Shown: piece by piece, positions 23,300-60,436 of the stretch
Layout: every line of letters begins with the position of its first letter
How positions within the stretch are numbered: position 1 is the stretch's first letter
Source: Kineothrix alysoides
GTDB taxonomy: Bacteria; Bacillota; Clostridia; Lachnospirales; Lachnospiraceae
NCBI RefSeq assembly: GCF_000732725.1
Contig: NZ_JPNB01000001.1
Location: 1,922,001-1,986,000, forward strand
Direction: 5' to 3'
DNA length: 64,000 nt
Position numbers and translations under genes: made by a program
Notes under the pieces: generated by a model
Seen by the model: the letters and a program-made list of their open reading frames with translations, nothing else
Told to the model about the DNA's origin: nothing
The model's database searches: none

Positions 23300-23354
23300 A
23301 TTACTAAAATATCCGGAAAAGTACCTATTATCTTACTCTCCCTATTTCCATAAC

Positions 23355-23522
23355 CTCGGATAGCGCCCCATCTCATCGATGACAGTCATACAGTTATTCA
23401 CTGCATGCCCAAGCACAAGACTACATGGCATCCTGCTCTTTCGGCGTCTTTTCCTTTCATTTTTCTTCTCCTGTGCCTGCCACATCCAAAAAATTACTAA
23501 TAAAATACGCAACCTCTACCTC
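23355..23522 (-). ncRNA. Lysine riboswitch (L box)
   Basis: Minus strand begins GGTAGAGGTTGCG (from 23520) and ends GGGGCGCTATCC (23358), which pair as P1. Between them are the hallmark L-box segments: AGTA, GAAAGGAAAAGACGCCGAA, GCATGCAGTGAATAACTGTA and TGACTGTCATC. The order and sequences fit the known aptamer. A terminator and then dapA follow. Confidence 0.93.
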
Positions 23523-23538
23523 TTAATTTTATAAAATT

Positions 23539-34153: not shown

Positions 34154-34226
34154 GCTGATGTGGCACAGTCGGTAGCGCACCTCATTGGTAGTGAGGAGGT
34201 CACGAGTTCGATTCTCGTCATCAGCT
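34154..34226 (+). tRNA. tRNA-Thr(GGT)
   Basis: Acceptor GCTGATG / CATCAGC, anticodon arm CCTCA-TTGGTAG-TGAGG with anticodon GGT (threonine ACC/ACU), T arm ACGAG-TTCGATT-CTCGT, discriminator T. CCA is not encoded. It marks the left edge of an AT-rich accessory stretch. Confidence 0.95.
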
Positions 34227-48734: not shown

Positions 48735-48739
48735 ATATA

Positions 48740-48759
48740 GCCCGGACATTCATCCGGGC
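48740..48759 (-). terminator. Terminator of peptide unit A
   Basis: GCCCGGA / TCCGGGC stem, six-base loop, followed on the minus strand by TATATTTTTG; just after the peptide stop. Confidence 0.8.
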
Positions 48760-48766
48760 CATGTTT

Positions 48767-48841
48767 TTATTGACAACCTAAGTTTAAATACTGACATATA
48801 GCGTTAAATAACTCGGAACAGCTACTGAAATTTAAACACAT
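48767..48841 (-). CDS. 24-residue four-Cys peptide, copy A
   Basis: Begins MCLNFSSCSELFNAICQ; Cys at positions 2, 8, 16 and 23. This copy has Asn at position 20, while B and C have Ser. AAGGAGG (48856-48850) is eight bases before ATG 48841. Promoter TTGCGT (48936-48931), 17 bp, TACAAT (48913-48908). The peptide is neutral to weakly acidic and amphipathic, with no classical signal peptide. I know no family for it. A secreted signal, toxin, metal-binding or leader peptide are all possible. Confidence 0.75.
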   Translation of the reverse strand: MCLNFSSCSELFNAICQYLNLGCQ

Positions 48842-48907
48842 AGTTTCGTCCTCCTTATTGTTTATTTTGTTTTCTTTTGTTTTTTTGTATTAGTTAACTA
48901 CAAATAT

Positions 48908-48936
48908 ATTGTAACAACTTTGTAACATTTACGCAA
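48908..48936 (-). promoter_or_regulatory. Promoter of peptide unit A
   Basis: TTGCGT, 17 bp, TACAAT on the minus strand, giving a leader of about 60 bases. Confidence 0.75.
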
Positions 48937-48973
48937 TAGGTGATAAATGGTAAAATCCTTTTGCGAAAAGATA

Positions 48974-48993
48974 GCCCGGGCATTCATCCGGGC
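48974..48993 (-). terminator. Terminator of peptide unit B
   Basis: GCCCGGG / TCCGGGC stem (one G-U type pair), six-base loop, then TATCTTTTCG on the minus strand. Confidence 0.7.
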
Positions 48994-48999
48994 CATATT

Positions 49000-49074
49000 T
49001 TATTGACAACCTAAGCTTAAATACTGACATATAGCGTTAAATAACTCGGAACAGCTACTGAAATTTAAACACAT
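49000..49074 (-). CDS. 24-residue four-Cys peptide, copy B
   Basis: Same as copy A except Ser at position 20 (one base change, AAC to AGC). Four Cys at 2, 8, 16, 23; the middle is SSCSELFNAICQYL. GGAGG is eight bases before ATG 49074, and the unit has promoter TTGCGA (49170-49165), 17 bp, TACAAT (49147-49142). Identical in protein sequence to copy C. Confidence 0.75.
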   Translation of the reverse strand: MCLNFSSCSELFNAICQYLSLGCQ

Positions 49075-49141
49075 AGTTTCGTCCTCCTTATTGTTTATTT
49101 TGTTTTCTTTTGTTTTATTTGTATTAGCTAACTACAAATGA

Positions 49142-49170
49142 ATTGTAACAACTTTGTAACATTTTCGCAA
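49142..49170 (-). promoter_or_regulatory. Promoter of peptide unit B
   Basis: TTGCGA, 17 bp, TACAAT on the minus strand; spacing is identical to units A and C. Confidence 0.75.
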
Positions 49171-49206
49171 TAGGAGATGATTGGTAAAATCCTTTTGCAA
49201 AAAGAT

Positions 49207-49226
49207 AGCCCGGACATTCATCCGGG
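49207..49226 (-). terminator. Terminator of peptide unit C
   Basis: GCCCGGA / TCCGGGC stem, six-base loop, then TATCTTTTTG on the minus strand. Confidence 0.75.
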
Positions 49227-49233
49227 CCATGTT

Positions 49234-49308
49234 TTATTGACAACCTAAGCTTAAATACTGACATATAGCGTTAAATAACTCGGAACAGCTACTGAAATTT
49301 AAACACAT
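49234..49308 (-). CDS. 24-residue four-Cys peptide, copy C
   Basis: Protein identical to copy B. The frame stays open for 62 codons upstream (to 49494), but that stretch is the unit's promoter and leader; the ATG at 49308 with AAGGAGG eight bases before it is the common start in all three units. Promoter TTGCGA (49404-49399), 17 bp, TACAAT (49381-49376). Confidence 0.75.
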   Translation of the reverse strand: MCLNFSSCSELFNAICQYLSLGCQ

Positions 49309-49375
49309 AGTTTCGTCCTCCTTATTGTTTATTTTGTTTTCTTTTGTTTTATTTGCATTAGCTAACCACAAATGA

Positions 49376-49404
49376 ATTGTAACAATTTTGTAATATTTTC
49401 GCAA
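49376..49404 (-). promoter_or_regulatory. Promoter of peptide unit C
   Basis: TTGCGA, 17 bp, TACAAT. Starts about 45 bases after the TetR stop codon. Confidence 0.75.
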
Positions 49405-49450
49405 TAGGAGATAAATGGTAAAATTTTTTTTAAAAAAAGTGAAAATGCGG

Positions 49451-50047
49451 CTATTCACCTGCGTACAAAAATGCAAAGCTTCCTCTCCTGGCACAAAGTC
49501 CTTTTTCCAATAAATCCGCCATTGCCTTCATTTTTAATATGTTTTCTTCGGCAGTCCACGGAAAGATACCGGGATCCAGCAGGAAAGTAAATACCGACAT
49601 AATGACTTCAGAATATTCTGCCGGATATTCACATATGAAACTGCCCTCTTCTACTCCCTGCGCAATAATGCAGGATATAATTTTCGATAAAGAAGATAAA
49701 ATCTTTGCCAAAGATTTTTGATGCAAAGCCGCATTTTGCGGCATATGCAAATATTCATCCAAAGAACTATCGACATATGAGCCCCGGTAGCTTCTTAACA
49801 AAAGGGCAAATTTTGAAACAGCATCTGCCTCGCTTTGTTCTATAAGCGCTTTGCACGCCTGGATAATATCCTCGTATTCCTGTTCCAGCAAAGCGTCCAT
49901 CACTTCTTCCTTCGAACGAAAATAATAGTATAGACCGCCTTTCGCTATTCCTGCTTTTCGGGCAATATCGCTTACAGACGCTGATCCAGCTTTCCCTTCT
50001 TTGAAAAGTTCGCGCATAGCATCTAAAATAATCTCTCTTTTTCCCAT
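49451..50047 (-). CDS. TetR-family repressor
   Basis: A 198-aa repressor: helix-turn-helix at about 20-45 (SVSDIARKAGIAKGGLYYYF) with the YYYFRSKEEVMDALL motif, and a helical ligand-binding C-terminal domain. ATG 50047 is used, with AGGTGG about nine bases before; a TTG at 50053 is possible. It is divergent from an alpha/beta hydrolase gene, and two matching operators lie between them, so it very likely represses that gene (and itself). The peptide array starts just after its stop. Confidence 0.92.
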   Translation of the reverse strand: MGKREIILDAMRELFKEGKAGSASVSDIARKAGIAKGGLYYYFRSKEEVMDALLEQEYEDIIQACKALIEQSEADAVSKFALLLRSYRGSYVDSSLDEYLHMPQNAALHQKSLAKILSSLSKIISCIIAQGVEEGSFICEYPAEYSEVIMSVFTFLLDPGIFPWTAEENILKMKAMADLLEKGLCARRGSFAFLYAGE

Positions 50048-50093
50048 ATACAATCACCACCTGATATTTTTAGTATATCATAAAAAAACTTTG

Positions 50094-50144
50094 TTGACCA
50101 CTGGTCAAATTTCTGTTATTCTAAATTTGTTGAACGGTGGTCAA
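50094..50144 (+). promoter_or_regulatory. TetR operators and hydrolase promoter
   Basis: O1 TTGACCACTGGTCAA (50094-50108) is a perfect 7-1-7 palindrome; O2 TTGAACGGTGGTCAA (50130-50144) is a weaker copy 36 bp on. The hydrolase promoter uses O1 as -35 (TTGACC 50094-50099), 17 bp, TATTCT (50117-50122); O2 is downstream of the expected start of transcription. Confidence 0.8.
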
Positions 50145-50164
50145 ATCTTAAAAAGGAGGTTTTT

Positions 50165-54745: not shown

Positions 54746-54915
54746 ATTTTATCTATCCTGCCTCATCCGGTTATATAAACCTAATTTAATTATATCTCAT
54801 ACCTTTCCCAAACATCCATAGCTTTTGGGAAAATTAAGCTTTTCTTAAGCAAATATTCATACTATATTATAGTATAATATCTGCAATGATATATTCACCC
54901 TATCTATCATCATAT

Positions 54916-55350
54916 TTACAGCTCTATATTTATCTTATGTAAACTTAACTTCATCAATTCGATAATCCGATCCATATTATCCTGAAGATAGAGATAACCT
55001 AGCAGAGCCTCCATTCCCGTCGCCTTCCTATAATCGTTCAGCGTGGCATTCTTCGCCTTCGCATAAGACTTTGCATTTCTGCCCCGTCTGTATACCGTCA
55101 GCTCGTCCTCCGTCAGCTCCTCCTGCAAGGCATCCGCCATAGCCGCCTGCGTAGCAGCATTCACATATTTTATCGCCATCTTATGCAGATTGTTGGCAGA
55201 GCGGTTCCCTCGCTCTACCACGACCGTCCTGACGATAACATCGTAAATGCTATCTCCGATATAAGCGAGCGTAAGAGGCGAATATTCATTAATATCCACC
55301 TCTTTACAGTTAAATTCCCTTTTTAGTTTTGCAATTAGACTCTCTTCCAT
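54916..55350 (-). CDS. mrnC: Mini-ribonuclease 3
   Basis: A 144-aa dimeric RNase III-like enzyme without a dsRNA-binding domain: LAYIGDSIYDVIVRTVVVE and NAKSYAKAKNATLNDYRKATG, with GDSIYD as metal-binding core. It matures the 23S rRNA ends. The start overlaps the end of cysS by 16 bases, as in many Firmicutes. Confidence 0.95.
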   Translation of the reverse strand: MEESLIAKLKREFNCKEVDINEYSPLTLAYIGDSIYDVIVRTVVVERGNRSANNLHKMAIKYVNAATQAAMADALQEELTEDELTVYRRGRNAKSYAKAKNATLNDYRKATGMEALLGYLYLQDNMDRIIELMKLSLHKINIEL

Positions 55351-56744
55351 TTAACACCTTCACGTGTATCTTCCAGAACAATACCCTGATTTAACAATTC
55401 GACGCGGATTTCATCCGCTCTCGCAAAGTTCTTCTCTCTTCTTGCCGTCTGCCTCTCCTCGATAAGCTTTTCAATATCAGCACCCGGAAGCTCTTCCTTC
55501 TTCTCCACGATAAGACCGCAGATATCGGACAACTTTGTGATTTCATCCTTAAGTGCCCTTATAAATTCTGCCGTATTCGATGCACTTACGTTGGTATTGA
55601 TGAACTTTACCAACTCAAAAATTATGGAAATTGCATCCGCTGTATTGAAGTCATCGTCCATCGCCTCATCGAACTTCACGGCGAAGCCCGCAGCCTCTTT
55701 TTGCCGCACCTCTTCCTCTGCACTCATAGGCTCTCCGGAGGCATTTTCCAGCAAATAGCTTAAGTTGCTTACACTGGTCACGATCCTTTCATATCCGCTC
55801 TTCGCCGCATTCATCAAATCCGCGCTGAAATTCAACGGACTTCTATAATGTGCCGACAGCATGAAGAATCGCAATACTTGTAAGTCATATTTTTCAGCGA
55901 TGTCCCTTACGGTAAAGAAATTACCCGCAGACTTGGACATCTTTCTATTATCGATGTTGAGAAAGGCATTGTGCATCCAATATCTGGCGAAAGTCTTGCC
56001 ATTAGCAGCCTCGGACTGAGCGATTTCATTTTCATGATGAGGGAAAACGAGATCCTCTCCACCTGCATGAATGTCGATTTCATCTCCAAGATATTTCTTA
56101 CTCATCACCGAGCACTCAATATGCCAGCCGGGACGTCCATTGCACCAGGGCGAAACCCAGTAAGGCTCGTTATCTTTCTTCGGCTTCCAAAGAACAAAAT
56201 CCAGGGAATCCTCTTTCTGGTTCTCTCCCGACACGAGAAGGGAACGGTTACCTCCTTGCAGATCGTCCAGATTCTTATGGGAAAGCTTTCCGTATTCTTT
56301 GAATTTACGGGTTCTGAAATAAACGGTCCCGTCCGCGGCCTTGTAGGCGAAGTCCTTCTCGATCAGACGAGCTATCATTTCCAGCATGCCGCCGATTTCG
56401 TTAGTTGCAAGAGGATGAGTGGTGGCAGGCCTTACATTCATCGCCTCCATATCCTTCTTGCATTCCGCAATATATCTTTGGGAAACTATCGCAGCTTCCA
56501 CGCCCTCTTCCAAAGCCTTTTTAATAATCTTGTCATCCACATCGGTGAAGTTGGAAACGAAATTGACCTCGTAACCCTTATGTTCCATATAGCGCCTTAC
56601 GGTATCAAACACGATCATCGGTCTGGCATTGCCTATATGAATCAGGTTGTAGACAGTGGGTCCGCAGACATACATCTTTACCTTTCCCTGCTCTATCGGT
56701 ACGAATTCTTCTTTTTTCTTGGATAACGTATTGTAAATTTTCAT
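55335..56744 (-). CDS. cysS: Cysteinyl-tRNA synthetase
   Basis: A 469-aa class I synthetase, full length: zinc Cys and HIGH motif in [25 protein letters not shown] and [10 protein letters not shown] (zinc ligands), KMSKS in [11 protein letters not shown]. Second gene of the Cys T-box operon, 44 bases after cysE, so both cysteine synthesis and charging respond to tRNA-Cys level. Ends in the family's C-terminal ARGxGK/R-type region ([20 protein letters not shown]). Confidence 0.97.
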
Positions 56745-56788
56745 TTCTCTTAACCTTTCTCATTTACTCATAAAACATTATTATTCAA

Positions 56789-57478
56789 TTATGATTTTTC
56801 CTGTTCTGTACGCATCTGCCGCCTTAGTTCTCTCAAAGAAGCTTCCAGCTCTAATACGCGGTTTGTCAGCTCGCTGTTCTCGCGCCGCAATCCGGCAATA
56901 TCCTCTTTTACCGGGTCCGGAAGATTTATTTGATCCATCTCTTCCTGAGGCAATGTCTGATTGTTTCTCTTTACCACCCGGCCCGGAACGCCTACTACCG
57001 TAGAGTTTGGAGGAACCTCCTCCAAGACCACGCTGCCTGCGCCTATTTTAGAATTATCTCCAATTTTAAAAGAGCCTAACACCTTGGCTCCGGCACTTAT
57101 CATTACATTATTTCCTACTGTAGGATGTCTCTTCCCGCATTCTTTTCCGGTGCCCCCCAGGGTAACTCCCTGATACAGCGTCACATTGTCCCCGATAATC
57201 GTCGTCTCTCCGATGATGACTCCGTGTCCATGATCGATGAAAAAGCCTTTGCCAATCTGCGCGCCCGGATGAATCTCGATTCCCGTCTTGCGAACACCTC
57301 TCTGAGATACCCATCTGGCAAAAAAATAATGTTTTTTCAAATACAATTTATGCGCCAGTCTGTAATGAAGCATTGCCTTAAAGCTGGGATATAAAAAAAC
57401 CTCCATCGCACTATGAATTGCCGGGTCACGTTCTCTGATTACGGCAATTTCTTCCCGCACTCTTTTTAGAAACCCCAT
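56789..57478 (-). CDS. cysE: Serine O-acetyltransferase
   Basis: A 229-aa hexapeptide acyltransferase making O-acetylserine for cysteine. ATG 57478 follows GGAGG; a TTG at 57496 lies before the site. Motifs: RDPAIHSAMEVFLYPSFKAM, IEIHPGAQIGKGFFIDHGHG, VIIGETTIIGDNVTLYQGVT. The C-terminus is a coiled coil. First gene of the operon, directly behind a T-box leader with specifier UGC (Cys). Confidence 0.95.
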   Translation of the reverse strand: MGFLKRVREEIAVIRERDPAIHSAMEVFLYPSFKAMLHYRLAHKLYLKKHYFFARWVSQRGVRKTGIEIHPGAQIGKGFFIDHGHGVIIGETTIIGDNVTLYQGVTLGGTGKECGKRHPTVGNNVMISAGAKVLGSFKIGDNSKIGAGSVVLEEVPPNSTVVGVPGRVVKRNNQTLPQEEMDQINLPDPVKEDIAGLRRENSELTNRVLELEASLRELRRQMRTEQEKS

Positions 57479-57489
57479 ATCATTCCTCC

Positions 57490-57792
57490 ATATCAAAAAA
57501 ACTCCGTCCTCCTAAGAATATAAATAATAAGAGACGAAGTTATCCGCGGTTCCACTCTAATTAAAGACGATTAAAAATCATCTTTCCCTTGTGTAGCGTA
57601 ACGTGCTTTTCCGTACCCGGATACTCAAAATCCTTCTTTCTCCGGATCAGCTCACAAATGCACTTGGGTTATCTTCGTATCGGGACTGCTTTCAGCCGAT
57701 GGCATTCCCTCTCTGGCATCGTCAGATAACTTACTCTTTTTGTTCGAAGCCTTTATCCTATTAAGACGAAGCATAGTTCTTACTTCAGCATA
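57490..57792 (-). ncRNA. T-box leader, tRNA-Cys responsive
   Basis: Minus strand. The T-box core TGGAACCGCG is at 57554-57545, and the terminator ACTTCGTC / GACGGAGT (57540-57533 with 57508-57501) followed by TTTTTTT lies before cysE. Stem I contains AGTGCATTTG with specifier TGC (57662-57660), cysteine. Promoter -35 TTGACA (57815-57810), 17 bp, TATGCT (57792-57787). Uncharged tRNA-Cys should stabilise the antiterminator. Confidence 0.93.
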
Positions 57793-57815
57793 TGCAAAAA
57801 CCCTTTATTTGTCAA
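57787..57815 (-). promoter_or_regulatory. Promoter of the cysE T-box operon
   Basis: TTGACA (57815-57810), 17 bp, TATGCT (57792-57787). The -35 box overlaps the last codons of hflX. Confidence 0.85.
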
Positions 57816-59110
57816 TACATTTTTGTATACTGCCCATATTTGCGGACGTCCGCAGCATGGCAGCTGACACTTAGCCGTATGCCTGCTTCCAAATATTCCT
57901 GCTCAAATACCTGCGCGTTTTCCATGAAATATGATACGACCTGCCCCTTATCATAAGGAATTAAAAATTCAGCCTGCACATAGTCCGCATAAACGGCCTG
58001 CAAAATCATCTCGGTCAGCTCTGAAAGTCCCTGTCCGCTCTTTGCCGATATATAAATTTTATTATCTCCTACCTGTTTGGGCAAGGAATCCATGCTGCAC
58101 AGATCGGCCTTATTATAAATATAGATGGCGGGAATATTTACAGCGCCTATTTCCTGCAAAGTCTCTTCTGTTACCTTTATCTGCTGCTTGTAATCCTTAT
58201 CCGAATAATCGATAACATATAAAAGCAAATCTGCGTTTTTAACCTCTTCGAGAGTAGACCGGAATGCCTTTACCAGTCCGTGGGGCAGCTTGTGAATGAA
58301 CCCTACTGTATCGGCCAAAAGGAATTCTTTGTTATTTCCTGTATTGATATTTCTTACCGTGGTATCCAGCGTGGCAAACAGCATATCTTTTTCCAGCACC
58401 TTCTTCTCCTCGTCCTGCAGATACCGCTCTACCATTGCGTTCATCAAAGTGGACTTTCCGGCGTTGGTATATCCTACCAGGGAAACCTTGGGAATTCTGG
58501 CCGACAGCCTGCGCTTGCTCTGGGTCTCTCTTTCTTTGGAGACCTCTTCCAGCTCTCGTCTAAGCTCCACGAGCCGCTTCTCAATCTTCCGTCTGTCCAA
58601 TTCCAGCTTCTTCTCACCGGCTCCCTTGCTGCTCATACTGCCGCTGGCTCCGCCCTGCCTCGTTAAAGCCTCATGCATTCCTACCAGACGGGACAGGAGA
58701 TATTGCAGCCTCGCCGTCTCCACCTGCAATTTGGCCTCTCTTGTTTTCGCCCGTTTGGAGAAAATATCCAGAATCAGGGTAGTTCTGTCTAACACCGGCG
58801 TCTCCAGTTCCCTTTGAAGATTGCGAAGCTGGGAGGGTGTTAACGAATCATCAAAAACAACGATATCCACCTCCAAGGCTTTCGCATATTCCTTGACCTC
58901 CTGCACCTTACCGGTTCCAATATAATGAGCCTTGTTCACCGCTTCCATCTTCTGCGTCACTACACCTGCTACCGACATATAGCACGCTTTCGCGAGTTCT
59001 CCAAGCTCATCCATGGAACGCTCAAAGTTCTCATCTGCTCCCGTATCCAATCCCACCAACAGAGCCTTTTCCCATTCCTGAGGCTCCGGTTTCAATATTT
59101 CTTCTTCCAT
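57812..59110 (-). CDS. hflX: GTPase HflX
   Basis: A 432-aa ribosome-binding GTPase. ATG 59110 has AGAAAGG before it; an ATG 21 bases upstream has none. N-terminal HflX domain (NKAHYIGTGKVQEVKEYAKA), coiled coil (RRKIEKRLVELRRELEEVSK), GTPase with G1 GYTNAGKSTL, G3 DTVGFI, G4 NKAD. Splits stalled ribosomes under stress. Minus strand, ahead of the cysE operon promoter. Confidence 0.95.
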   Translation of the reverse strand: MEEEILKPEPQEWEKALLVGLDTGADENFERSMDELGELAKACYMSVAGVVTQKMEAVNKAHYIGTGKVQEVKEYAKALEVDIVVFDDSLTPSQLRNLQRELETPVLDRTTLILDIFSKRAKTREAKLQVETARLQYLLSRLVGMHEALTRQGGASGSMSSKGAGEKKLELDRRKIEKRLVELRRELEEVSKERETQSKRRLSARIPKVSLVGYTNAGKSTLMNAMVERYLQDEEKKVLEKDMLFATLDTTVRNINTGNNKEFLLADTVGFIHKLPHGLVKAFRSTLEEVKNADLLLYVIDYSDKDYKQQIKVTEETLQEIGAVNIPAIYIYNKADLCSMDSLPKQVGDNKIYISAKSGQGLSELTEMILQAVYADYVQAEFLIPYDKGQVVSYFMENAQVFEQEYLEAGIRLSVSCHAADVRKYGQYTKMY

Positions 59111-59155
59111 ATTATGCCTTTCTTTTATCATACGGGTTTTTTTGATGTCCGTATT

Positions 59156-60436
59156 TTATACAATCTCATTAATAAATACGCGGGAAAATAATTTTATGCT
59201 ATTTAGTTTACATAAAACATCACCTTTTTGCTCGTTCTGAGGTATTTCAAAACACTCCTCCGGCGGGCGATAGCCAAATACCCATGAAGTCAGACTATCT
59301 ATCGTCGTAGAGCAAGATACTTCGGCTCCGACATTCCGATTTCTTTGTATATCGGCTTCCCGGTATCCCACAGAACATTGCCATATGCCATTGTTCCCTT
59401 CCAGCATCGGGTCAGCAATGCGAATATTCAAAATAATATCCTCCTTATCTCCTGCTTCGCTGCAAGCAGTCGATGTTTTTTTTCTAAGCAGGGACAGCAT
59501 TGCCTGCACGTTCAAGATTCTTGCCATGATGATGGGCTTATCCCCTGCTTCTTCCAAAAAACCGCTCTGTTGACAGAAATAGTCATCATCGAACAGAGCC
59601 TCCTGTATGTCCGTTTTCTGCCCTTCCTGCGTATATAGAAAATATCCGGTTATTTTTTCTCCTTGGGTTTCCGTTTCCCGCAAGCGGCATGATTCCCTCT
59701 TTTCCGATTCCCGCAGTAGAAATATGGCTCCGTTTTGCACTTCCAACTCCTTGATCAGCGTATCGTAATAAGCTTCGTCTCTGCGTATGAACACGTCATA
59801 GCTTTCCTTCAAACGAGAGCTTGCATAGTGCAGCAATTGAGGAATTTCCTCCCTTTGCAGTACCGCCGTTTCCCAAGGCCTTCGCGGATGGCCGGAGGAT
59901 GAATTTCTTATCGTTTCCTGGAGCGCTAATACTTTCACCTTATATTTCTTTTTATCATAAATATAAACAAACTGGAAAGGCTCATAAATTTTCGGACTGG
60001 CAGGCATCAAAAAAGCAAAAGGCTGGTTTCCCGCATACATGTAATCCATGGACGCCTTTAGCAGCTCTCTCATATACCCCCTATGCCGGTATTTCGCCTC
60101 CGTAGCCACCCCTACAATATAATTTATCTCCAATGAAGCAAAGGTATCACCCACTCGCAGTTCCATAACGTAAGGTGACAAATGCAGCATTGCTGCCGGG
60201 GCTTCCCGCTTTAAATCTGCCGTTATTAGTTCTTCTGTATCTCCCGTGTCAGAATATCGCTCTTTTTCTGCCTCGCCAGTATCCGGATATAGTACAAAGG
60301 CCCGGTTTCTCCCTGCCTTTTCTTCAAAATAATAGCCTGTAAACTCATGGGAGTCCTCGGAAAATACCCGCTCCCACAAAGTTCTGAGCGCAAGACATTC
60401 TTCTCCTATTATCTCTTTTATCATATTTCTGATCAT
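59156..60436 (-). CDS. Eis-like GNAT N-acetyltransferase
   Basis: A 426-aa protein with two GNAT-type halves and a C-terminal SCP2-like domain, as in Eis: VGVATEAKYRHRGYMRELLK (acetyl-CoA loop), FAFLMPASPKIYEPFQFVYI, and later DPMLEGNNGIWQCSVGYREA (SCP2 part). Eis enzymes acetylate lysine or aminoglycosides; substrate here is unknown. ATG 60436 is very close to its AAGGAG; ATG 60424 would be better spaced, so the start is uncertain by four residues. Confidence 0.85.
   Translation of the reverse strand: MIRNMIKEIIGEECLALRTLWERVFSEDSHEFTGYYFEEKAGRNRAFVLYPDTGEAEKERYSDTGDTEELITADLKREAPAAMLHLSPYVMELRVGDTFASLEINYIVGVATEAKYRHRGYMRELLKASMDYMYAGNQPFAFLMPASPKIYEPFQFVYIYDKKKYKVKVLALQETIRNSSSGHPRRPWETAVLQREEIPQLLHYASSRLKESYDVFIRRDEAYYDTLIKELEVQNGAIFLLRESEKRESCRLRETETQGEKITGYFLYTQEGQKTDIQEALFDDDYFCQQSGFLEEAGDKPIIMARILNVQAMLSLLRKKTSTACSEAGDKEDIILNIRIADPMLEGNNGIWQCSVGYREADIQRNRNVGAEVSCSTTIDSLTSWVFGYRPPEECFEIPQNEQKGDVLCKLNSIKLFSRVFINEIV

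Follow-up and report, generated by a model that had tools for sequence, protein, structure and literature searches.

A family of selected, cysteine-rich microprotein genes with their own promoters in Lachnospiraceae

Several groups of very short bacterial proteins have been described that are relevant to the locus presented here. Phenol-soluble modulins are leaderless amphipathic peptides of roughly 20-25 residues that have no signal peptide and are encoded by copies in tandem or in a row. The ldr/ibs and SOS-type small toxins of E. coli are tiny peptides expressed from stand-alone units with a control site, and the ldr and ibs units are arranged in tandem. SCIFF and other Cys-rich RiPP precursors are short Cys-rich peptides of Clostridia. 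SpoVM is a stand-alone, amphipathic microprotein of about 25 residues that is located at the membrane surface. Peptides of this size easily escape gene callers, and a lone 24-codon open reading frame (ORF) without relatives proves little. Comparison across genera reveals a product that appears to be under selection and to have a promoter pattern of its own, in bacteria of a family that is central to gut microbiology.

The window, i.e., the whole stretch of 64,000 nucleotides of Kineothrix alysoides that was analyzed, contains an array of three direct repeats on the minus strand with start-to-start spacings of 233 and 234. The repeat spacing, ORFs, promoters, ribosome sites and stems agree with the first-pass annotation, which had described three tandem, self-contained units of 233-234 bp without naming their strand. 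Each unit has the order CCA-N5-CTCCTA, -35 hexamer, 17 bases, TACAAT, dyad, A-rich leader, AAGGAGG, 8 bases, ATG, 24 codons, TAA and GC-rich stem. ORF 1 (49308-49234, stop included), which is established by translation and homologs, and ORF 2 (49074-49000, stop included), established by translation, encode the identical peptide MCLNFSSCSELFNAICQYLSLGCQ. Translation of ORF 3 (48841-48767, stop included) yields MCLNFSSCSELFNAICQYLNLGCQ, which ends in LNLGCQ and differs at residue 20 only. All three peptides have cysteines at positions 2, 8, 16 and 23, and in all three units AAGGAGG lies eight bases ahead of the ATG, both as originally read.

A terminator in each unit had also been proposed. A stem is indeed present in all three units (49205..49230, 48971..48996 and 48737..48762, all on the minus strand). 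However, the minus-strand scan lists only the first and third; the middle stem has a weaker T tail, is read from the sequence and is listed by the scan in its plus-strand reading. Counting both strands, the scan of the region gave five terminator-like sites, versus 0.4 in shuffles.

The proposed TTGCG(A/T)-17-TACAAT promoters are present in each unit. Promoter 1 (49376..49404, minus strand; TTGCGA, with TG before the -10) was found by the promoter scan and in a cross-genome alignment, and promoter 2 (49142..49170, minus strand; TTGCGA) was also found by the scan. Promoter 3 (48908..48936, minus strand; TTGCGT) lies under the scan threshold and was read from the sequence. The scan returned four promoter-like sites, two of them being promoters 1 and 2, versus 4.1 in shuffles, which alone is no better than chance; the assignment is convincing only through conservation in other genomes. 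The alignment shows a conserved upstream element, CCA-N5-CTCCTATTG, whose TTG begins the -35 hexamer (unit 1: 49402..49418, minus strand). In unit 3, CACCTA replaces the CTCCTA of this element. The distance from TCCTATTG to TTACAAT is 27 in nearly all alignment rows that have both.

The CTCCTA (window 49402-49410), upstream of the -35 hexamer, and the ribosome site of its gene are complementary, and RNAalifold paired the two. We dropped this pairing because the element is upstream of the expected start and because some relatives, L079 among them, carry changes on that side alone. A 5′-terminal RNA hairpin was likewise set aside, since the window leaders, folded from the expected start, are unstructured (0, 0 and -1.6 kcal/mol).

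An imperfect dyad lies over the expected start site. In the window it has the form TTTGTRnTTAGCTAAYRCAAA, represented by TTTGTGGTTAGCTAATGCAAA in unit 1 (49352..49372, minus strand), with a second copy in unit 2 (49118..49138, minus strand); in unit 3 it is TTTGTAGTTAACTAATACAAA (48884..48904, minus strand), off by one base and recovered by a pattern search that allows one mismatch. The dyads of units 1 and 2 come from the same pattern search together with counts of base pairs, and the support from these counts is mixed. Among 24 sequences, there are 11 doubly changed cells versus 4.3 in shuffles (reached in 0/500), and the covariation score was reached by 3 of the 500 shuffles. By contrast, pairs with a double change (3 versus 2.6; 255/500) and pair types (11 versus 11.0; 322/500), the measures less inflated by relatedness, exhibit no excess. 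The outermost pairs are the least conserved. The halves have a constant one-base asymmetry, one half having an extra base, which is odd for a simple dimer operator. We tentatively regard the dyad as a putative protein-binding site.

We searched for this promoter pattern elsewhere using a model, R1, that was built from 23 sequences and run on 18 carriers and on 397 genomes of the family; all three window promoters match it. There are eight matches with E < 1e-8 outside the training set and the window (G069, G077, G087, two in G203, G218, G260 and G280); a peptide gene follows seven of them, and a decayed copy follows the eighth (G260). Among the seven matches between 1e-5 and 9e-5 in the 397 genomes, three precede peptide genes (G383, G205, G183), and the other four (G140, G136, G138 and a second G280 site) have no peptide downstream. 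A match at G201:C35 also has no peptide behind it. When 14 carriers were searched for the dyad pattern with one mismatch allowed, 9 of them had matches, 13 in total, 12 of which are at peptide promoters; the reversed control gave one. The pattern matches nowhere in the other five carriers, whose dyads are more diverged. Thus, the promoter with its start-site dyad occurs almost only at these peptide genes.

Relatives of the peptide were sought with DNA and peptide searches of 61 genomes, with profile searches of 397 genomes of the same family, 392 of the order and 16 of the genus, with the promoter-model search of the 397 family genomes and with a pattern scan of genome contigs. Besides the window genome (G000), the 61-genome search found the family in G009, G012, G029, G032 and G037. 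Based on hits that were read as loci, at least 21 of the 397 family genomes sampled contain an intact relative. This number is a lower bound because the weak profile matches were only partly read: the search lists matches up to an E-value of 0.1 in 79 of the 397 genomes, and the weak ones were read only where the locus was returned or a later search led back to it (G087, G183, G383). The profile search found intact relatives in 3 of the 16 genus genomes. Together with G009, G012 and G037, the last of which belongs to another family of the same order and is the one carrier outside the family, the carriers total 24 genomes. The pattern scan retrieved 17 contigs, one of which (L069) was false and was dropped; 11 of the 16 true contigs are additional to the counted carrier genomes. 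Carriers among the scanned contigs include Kineothrix sp. MSJ-39, Muricomes intestini and Faecalicatena contorta, all three genera being Lachnospiraceae. The conservation across genomes that the first-pass annotation had proposed to look for is therefore present, with intact relatives in many genera.

Beyond this range, a search of 391 genomes from across the class yielded no convincing new member. Its matches include one without a start (G890) and a 22-codon ATG frame with one cysteine that lacks a ribosome site or array-type promoter (G1052), which we treat as chance. An order-wide match (G451) has no such ORF. Matches of the 61-genome search in G010, G022, G026, G034 and G059, and second matches in G012 and G037, were not this peptide when read. 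Two pattern scans of viral contigs and searches of plasmids found nothing. A record filed as Bacteriophage sp. (MT836467.1; L132) carries one copy of the peptide gene. Its ORFs resemble bacterial housekeeping genes by eye (DNA polymerase I-like and CoaE-like), so the record is probably a mislabeled bacterial chromosome.

A locus that keeps the DNA and loses the frame or cysteines, which had been named beforehand as counting against a peptide, was found once: a decayed copy in G260 (L139) retains the upstream element and dyad, and has lost the -10, the ATG and cysteines. At the array's site, all that G007 has is a relic, the 3′ end of the ORF plus the terminator, and G012 has no peptide gene there, so loss of the gene is tolerated. 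The gene is accessory: it was not found in most sampled genomes and is decayed in G260 and G007. This distribution suits a conditional effector as well as a regulator.

Copy number varies, as the first-pass annotation had proposed to check: at least 7 of the 24 genomes have multiple copies. In addition to the three tandem copies of the window genome, G009 has two copies, G063 has five (four ORFs listed by script and a fifth read from the printed sequence), G304 has three ORFs in a row and G205 has two in a row, and dispersed pairs occur in G203 and G383. In both G000 and G009, the last copy has Asn20 and the earlier copies have Ser20. Given this common distribution, the duplication probably predates the split of the two genomes.

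Divergence of the genes argues that the peptide is maintained by selection, as the first-pass annotation had proposed. In homologs, the DNA has diverged and the frame is kept. Among 25 ORFs of the C2-C8-C16 type, including the three of the window, mean pS is 0.65 versus a mean pN of 0.22. Of the 300 pairs, which are not independent, 286 have the smaller value for pN. Two paralogs about 142 kb apart on one contig of G203 encode the same 21 residues and have 10 base differences, all silent. The ORFs of G000 and G009 have three differences, all changing residues (F5L, F12Y, N13K), which are too few to weigh much. Together with the relatives in many genera, the silent-site excess and the silent-only paralogs provide good support for a selected, self-contained microprotein gene family.

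The genes around the array do not point to a dedicated partner. In the window, the array is followed on the same strand by genes for a family-5 solute-binding protein, two permeases and two ABC ATPases; upstream are a TetR regulator, an alpha/beta hydrolase on the opposite strand and a sigma-70-type factor (all by Pfam). The TetR gene had been reported to end 45 bases from the first promoter; the distance is 46 bases, from the ORF end at 49451 to the first -35 hexamer. It is a neighbor here, and not in the family at large: in G009, which lacks the TetR and hydrolase genes at this place, the array is flanked by the genes for the sigma factor and the solute-binding protein. We therefore dropped TetR as a candidate linked to the array, and regard it as a local neighbor only. 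By eye, TTGACCACTGGTCAA-like inverted repeats occur between the divergent TetR and hydrolase genes (window 50080-50150); they are unlike the peptide dyad and are possibly a TetR operator. Rfam matches in the window are a lysine riboswitch (23353-23526, minus strand), a T-box leader (57527-57756, minus strand) and a tRNA (34154-34226, plus strand).

We compared 30 distinct flanking stretches, 2.7 to 20 kb long; no protein cluster occurs in more than seven of them, consistent with the earlier observation that no dedicated enzyme or transporter is in view. The widest clusters, in seven stretches each, are two-component-like and ABC-type (by eye, with Pfam on examples), as expected of such common families. 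In a Faecalicatena/Muricomes group (L073, L076 and L090, which is the same as L074), a divergent pair of a response regulator and a histidine kinase adjoins the gene (Pfam on L076), which is not general. A gene pair for a cysteinyl-tRNA synthetase and an RNase III-domain protein lies about 4.4 kb from the peptide gene in G201 (L093 14326-17796). Relatives of this pair are also near the array in the window (54900-59500) and in G009, which could reflect a shared ancestral region or coincidence.

The peptide belongs to no family that we could recognize, as the first-pass annotation had said. When 17 members were scanned one by one, none matched NCBIfam at E-values up to 1, none matched PADLOC, the best Pfam E-value was 0.13 and one member matched PHROGs at 0.031, the latter two being at chance level. 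Combined into one profile, the 17 members had only chance-level matches among PDB sequences. In open-licence literature we found nothing recognizable as this peptide family, although small-ORF catalogues may hold such peptides unnamed; the one match to the literal peptide strings was an unrelated paper.

As to shape, in the commoner form, 33 of the 36 distinct peptides first tested exhibit helical amphipathicity over residues 8-20 (p<0.05 versus shuffles), and none exhibits strand periodicity; the peptides are related, so these tests are not independent. The average moment of 24 canonical peptides peaks at 100 degrees. In these 24, Cys8 is a median of 16 degrees off the apolar direction, and Cys16, with a median of 96 degrees, is at the edge. 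The predicted helical segment starts with S, N or D before a cysteine, often with E or D three positions on, as in a helix N-cap motif. Seven peptides found later mostly have a second form, MCFxF..C..LL..I...CFGC, whose promoter is common to both forms. By the same test, only two of these seven are helical, which brings the total to 35 of 43; the prediction of an amphipathic helix therefore holds for the first form only, and the second shows the pattern weakly.

Based on the sequences, the genes combine a sigma-A-like promoter that recurs across genera, a strong ribosome site, a selected frame, often a terminator and, in several lineages, several copies. The interpretation that we prefer, at somewhat less than even confidence, is that the units are self-contained genes, each for a leaderless microprotein of some 20-25 residues that acts in trans, with a dyad-binding regulator and copy number setting its supply. 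The peptide would be neither cleaved nor enzymatically modified and would fold on meeting a membrane or a partner protein. In the commoner form, roughly residues 8-20 would then make a short amphipathic helix whose apolar face includes Cys8 and is bordered by Cys16. It would act in trans by binding, and its supply would be set by a regulator that recognizes the start-site dyad, plus the number of gene copies. From the shape of the peptide and the architecture of the gene, we infer binding inside the cell or at the membrane surface as the first choice of mode of action and export as the second. A further-reaching proposal, which we consider possible and rather doubtful, is that the peptides form a new class of Cys-rich microproteins, each a one-gene regulon. 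A dedicated regulator would read both the dyad and the state of the target, and copy number would be tuned by tandem, in-a-row and dispersed duplications in separate Lachnospiraceae lineages. If the peptide acts on the membrane, a partner or neighboring cells, it would be a compact and testable control device.

Foremost among the alternatives, and in our view unlikely, is that the peptide leaves the cell through a general exporter as a signal or antagonistic amphipathic peptide, extra copies providing dose; a signal, a small secreted peptide or a toxin had been among the suggestions of the first-pass annotation. A length of 20-25 residues with no room for a signal sequence, the amphipathicity of the commoner form, tandem or in-a-row copies with near-identical products and the accessory distribution would all fit. 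LytTR-type response regulators, which serve some peptide-signaling systems, were found in 3 of the 30 stretches (L070 6374-7174, L098 4725-5483 and L087 1909-2664); that of L070 is 118 bases upstream of the peptide gene and the other two are farther off. However, the net charge is -1 to +2 and thus not cationic, and among linked genes no exporter, receptor or immunity gene generally recurs beside the loci. An adjacent receptor or processing gene of the Rgg/SHP, RRNPP or agr type is likewise not a general feature. In our judgement, an intracellular or membrane-surface target may be more likely than an exported effector.

The cysteines raise the idea that the peptide binds zinc, iron or an iron-sulfur cluster, or buffers redox, under a stress-responsive promoter. 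Four cysteines are present in 33 of 38 end-of-array peptides, and several second-form peptides end in CFGC, giving a C-x2-C pair. However, the four-cysteine pattern, which holds in the window, is not required in the family: the other five of the 38 have three, there are only two in the MFNF copies of G063, and the two most constant cysteines are not always the same distance apart in intact relatives. As no metal or thiol gene recurs in the flanks, which were read by eye, we consider this function distinctly improbable.

The tandem self-contained repeats encoding a tiny peptide also recall the ldr and ibs loci, in which case a membrane-damaging peptide would be restrained by an antisense RNA in a type I toxin-antitoxin system. 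We give this idea little credence: a consensus scan of the window shows no plus-strand promoter-like site in register across the three units, the leader is unstructured and the commoner form is amphipathic rather than a hydrophobic span.

A small regulatory RNA with an incidental short ORF would account for the leader, which is conserved among relatives, and for codons 7, 8 and 11, which have far less third-base variation than most other codons of the ORF. However, variation is overall highest at third positions, pN is much lower than pS and the G203 paralogs differ only silently. A hairpin inside the ORF exhibits no covariation and so does not account for the low variation at the three codons. 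A role as RNA only is contradicted by this codon evidence and appears very improbable.

A terminator-like stem lies within 80 nucleotides past the stop at 23 of 38 loci, versus 7% in base shuffles. At these 38 loci, the next downstream ORF of at least 80 amino acids is convergent in 23 cases, co-directional in 13 and absent in two, with ORFs called mechanically; the nearest one in G009 is a doubtful frame of about 90 codons. Least probable of all is therefore a cis-acting cysteine leader peptide on which stalled ribosomes would control the terminator and a gene farther downstream: a short Cys-rich ORF directly followed by a terminator, the same-strand ABC transporter operon of the window and the 13 co-directional loci would suit it, but it is largely contradicted for the family by the 23 convergent loci, by downstream genes that differ between loci and by the window copies each having their own promoter and terminator.

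The preferred reading, a trans-acting leaderless microprotein, resembles each of the systems described at the outset in part. The array peptide is like phenol-soluble modulins in having about 20-25 residues, no signal peptide, an amphipathic helix predicted for its commoner form and tandem or in-row copies. It is unlike them in being Cys-rich and near-neutral, in its single-gene units with their own promoter and dyad, and in having no generally linked exporter; the likeness is one of features, and we claim no sequence similarity. It is like the ldr/ibs and SOS-type toxins in that a small, independent unit with a control site encodes a tiny peptide, and like ldr and ibs also in the tandem arrangement. 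It differs from these toxins in that the consensus scan shows no antisense promoter in register, the leader is unstructured and the peptide is Cys-rich. Like SCIFF and other RiPP precursors, it is a short Cys-rich peptide in Clostridia, but it has no leader region, no generally recurring enzyme alongside among the 30 stretches and no NCBIfam match. SpoVM is similar as a stand-alone amphipathic peptide of about 25 residues without known processing, whereas the family found here is accessory, often multi-copy, Cys-rich and, in this array, preceded by sigma-A-like promoters.
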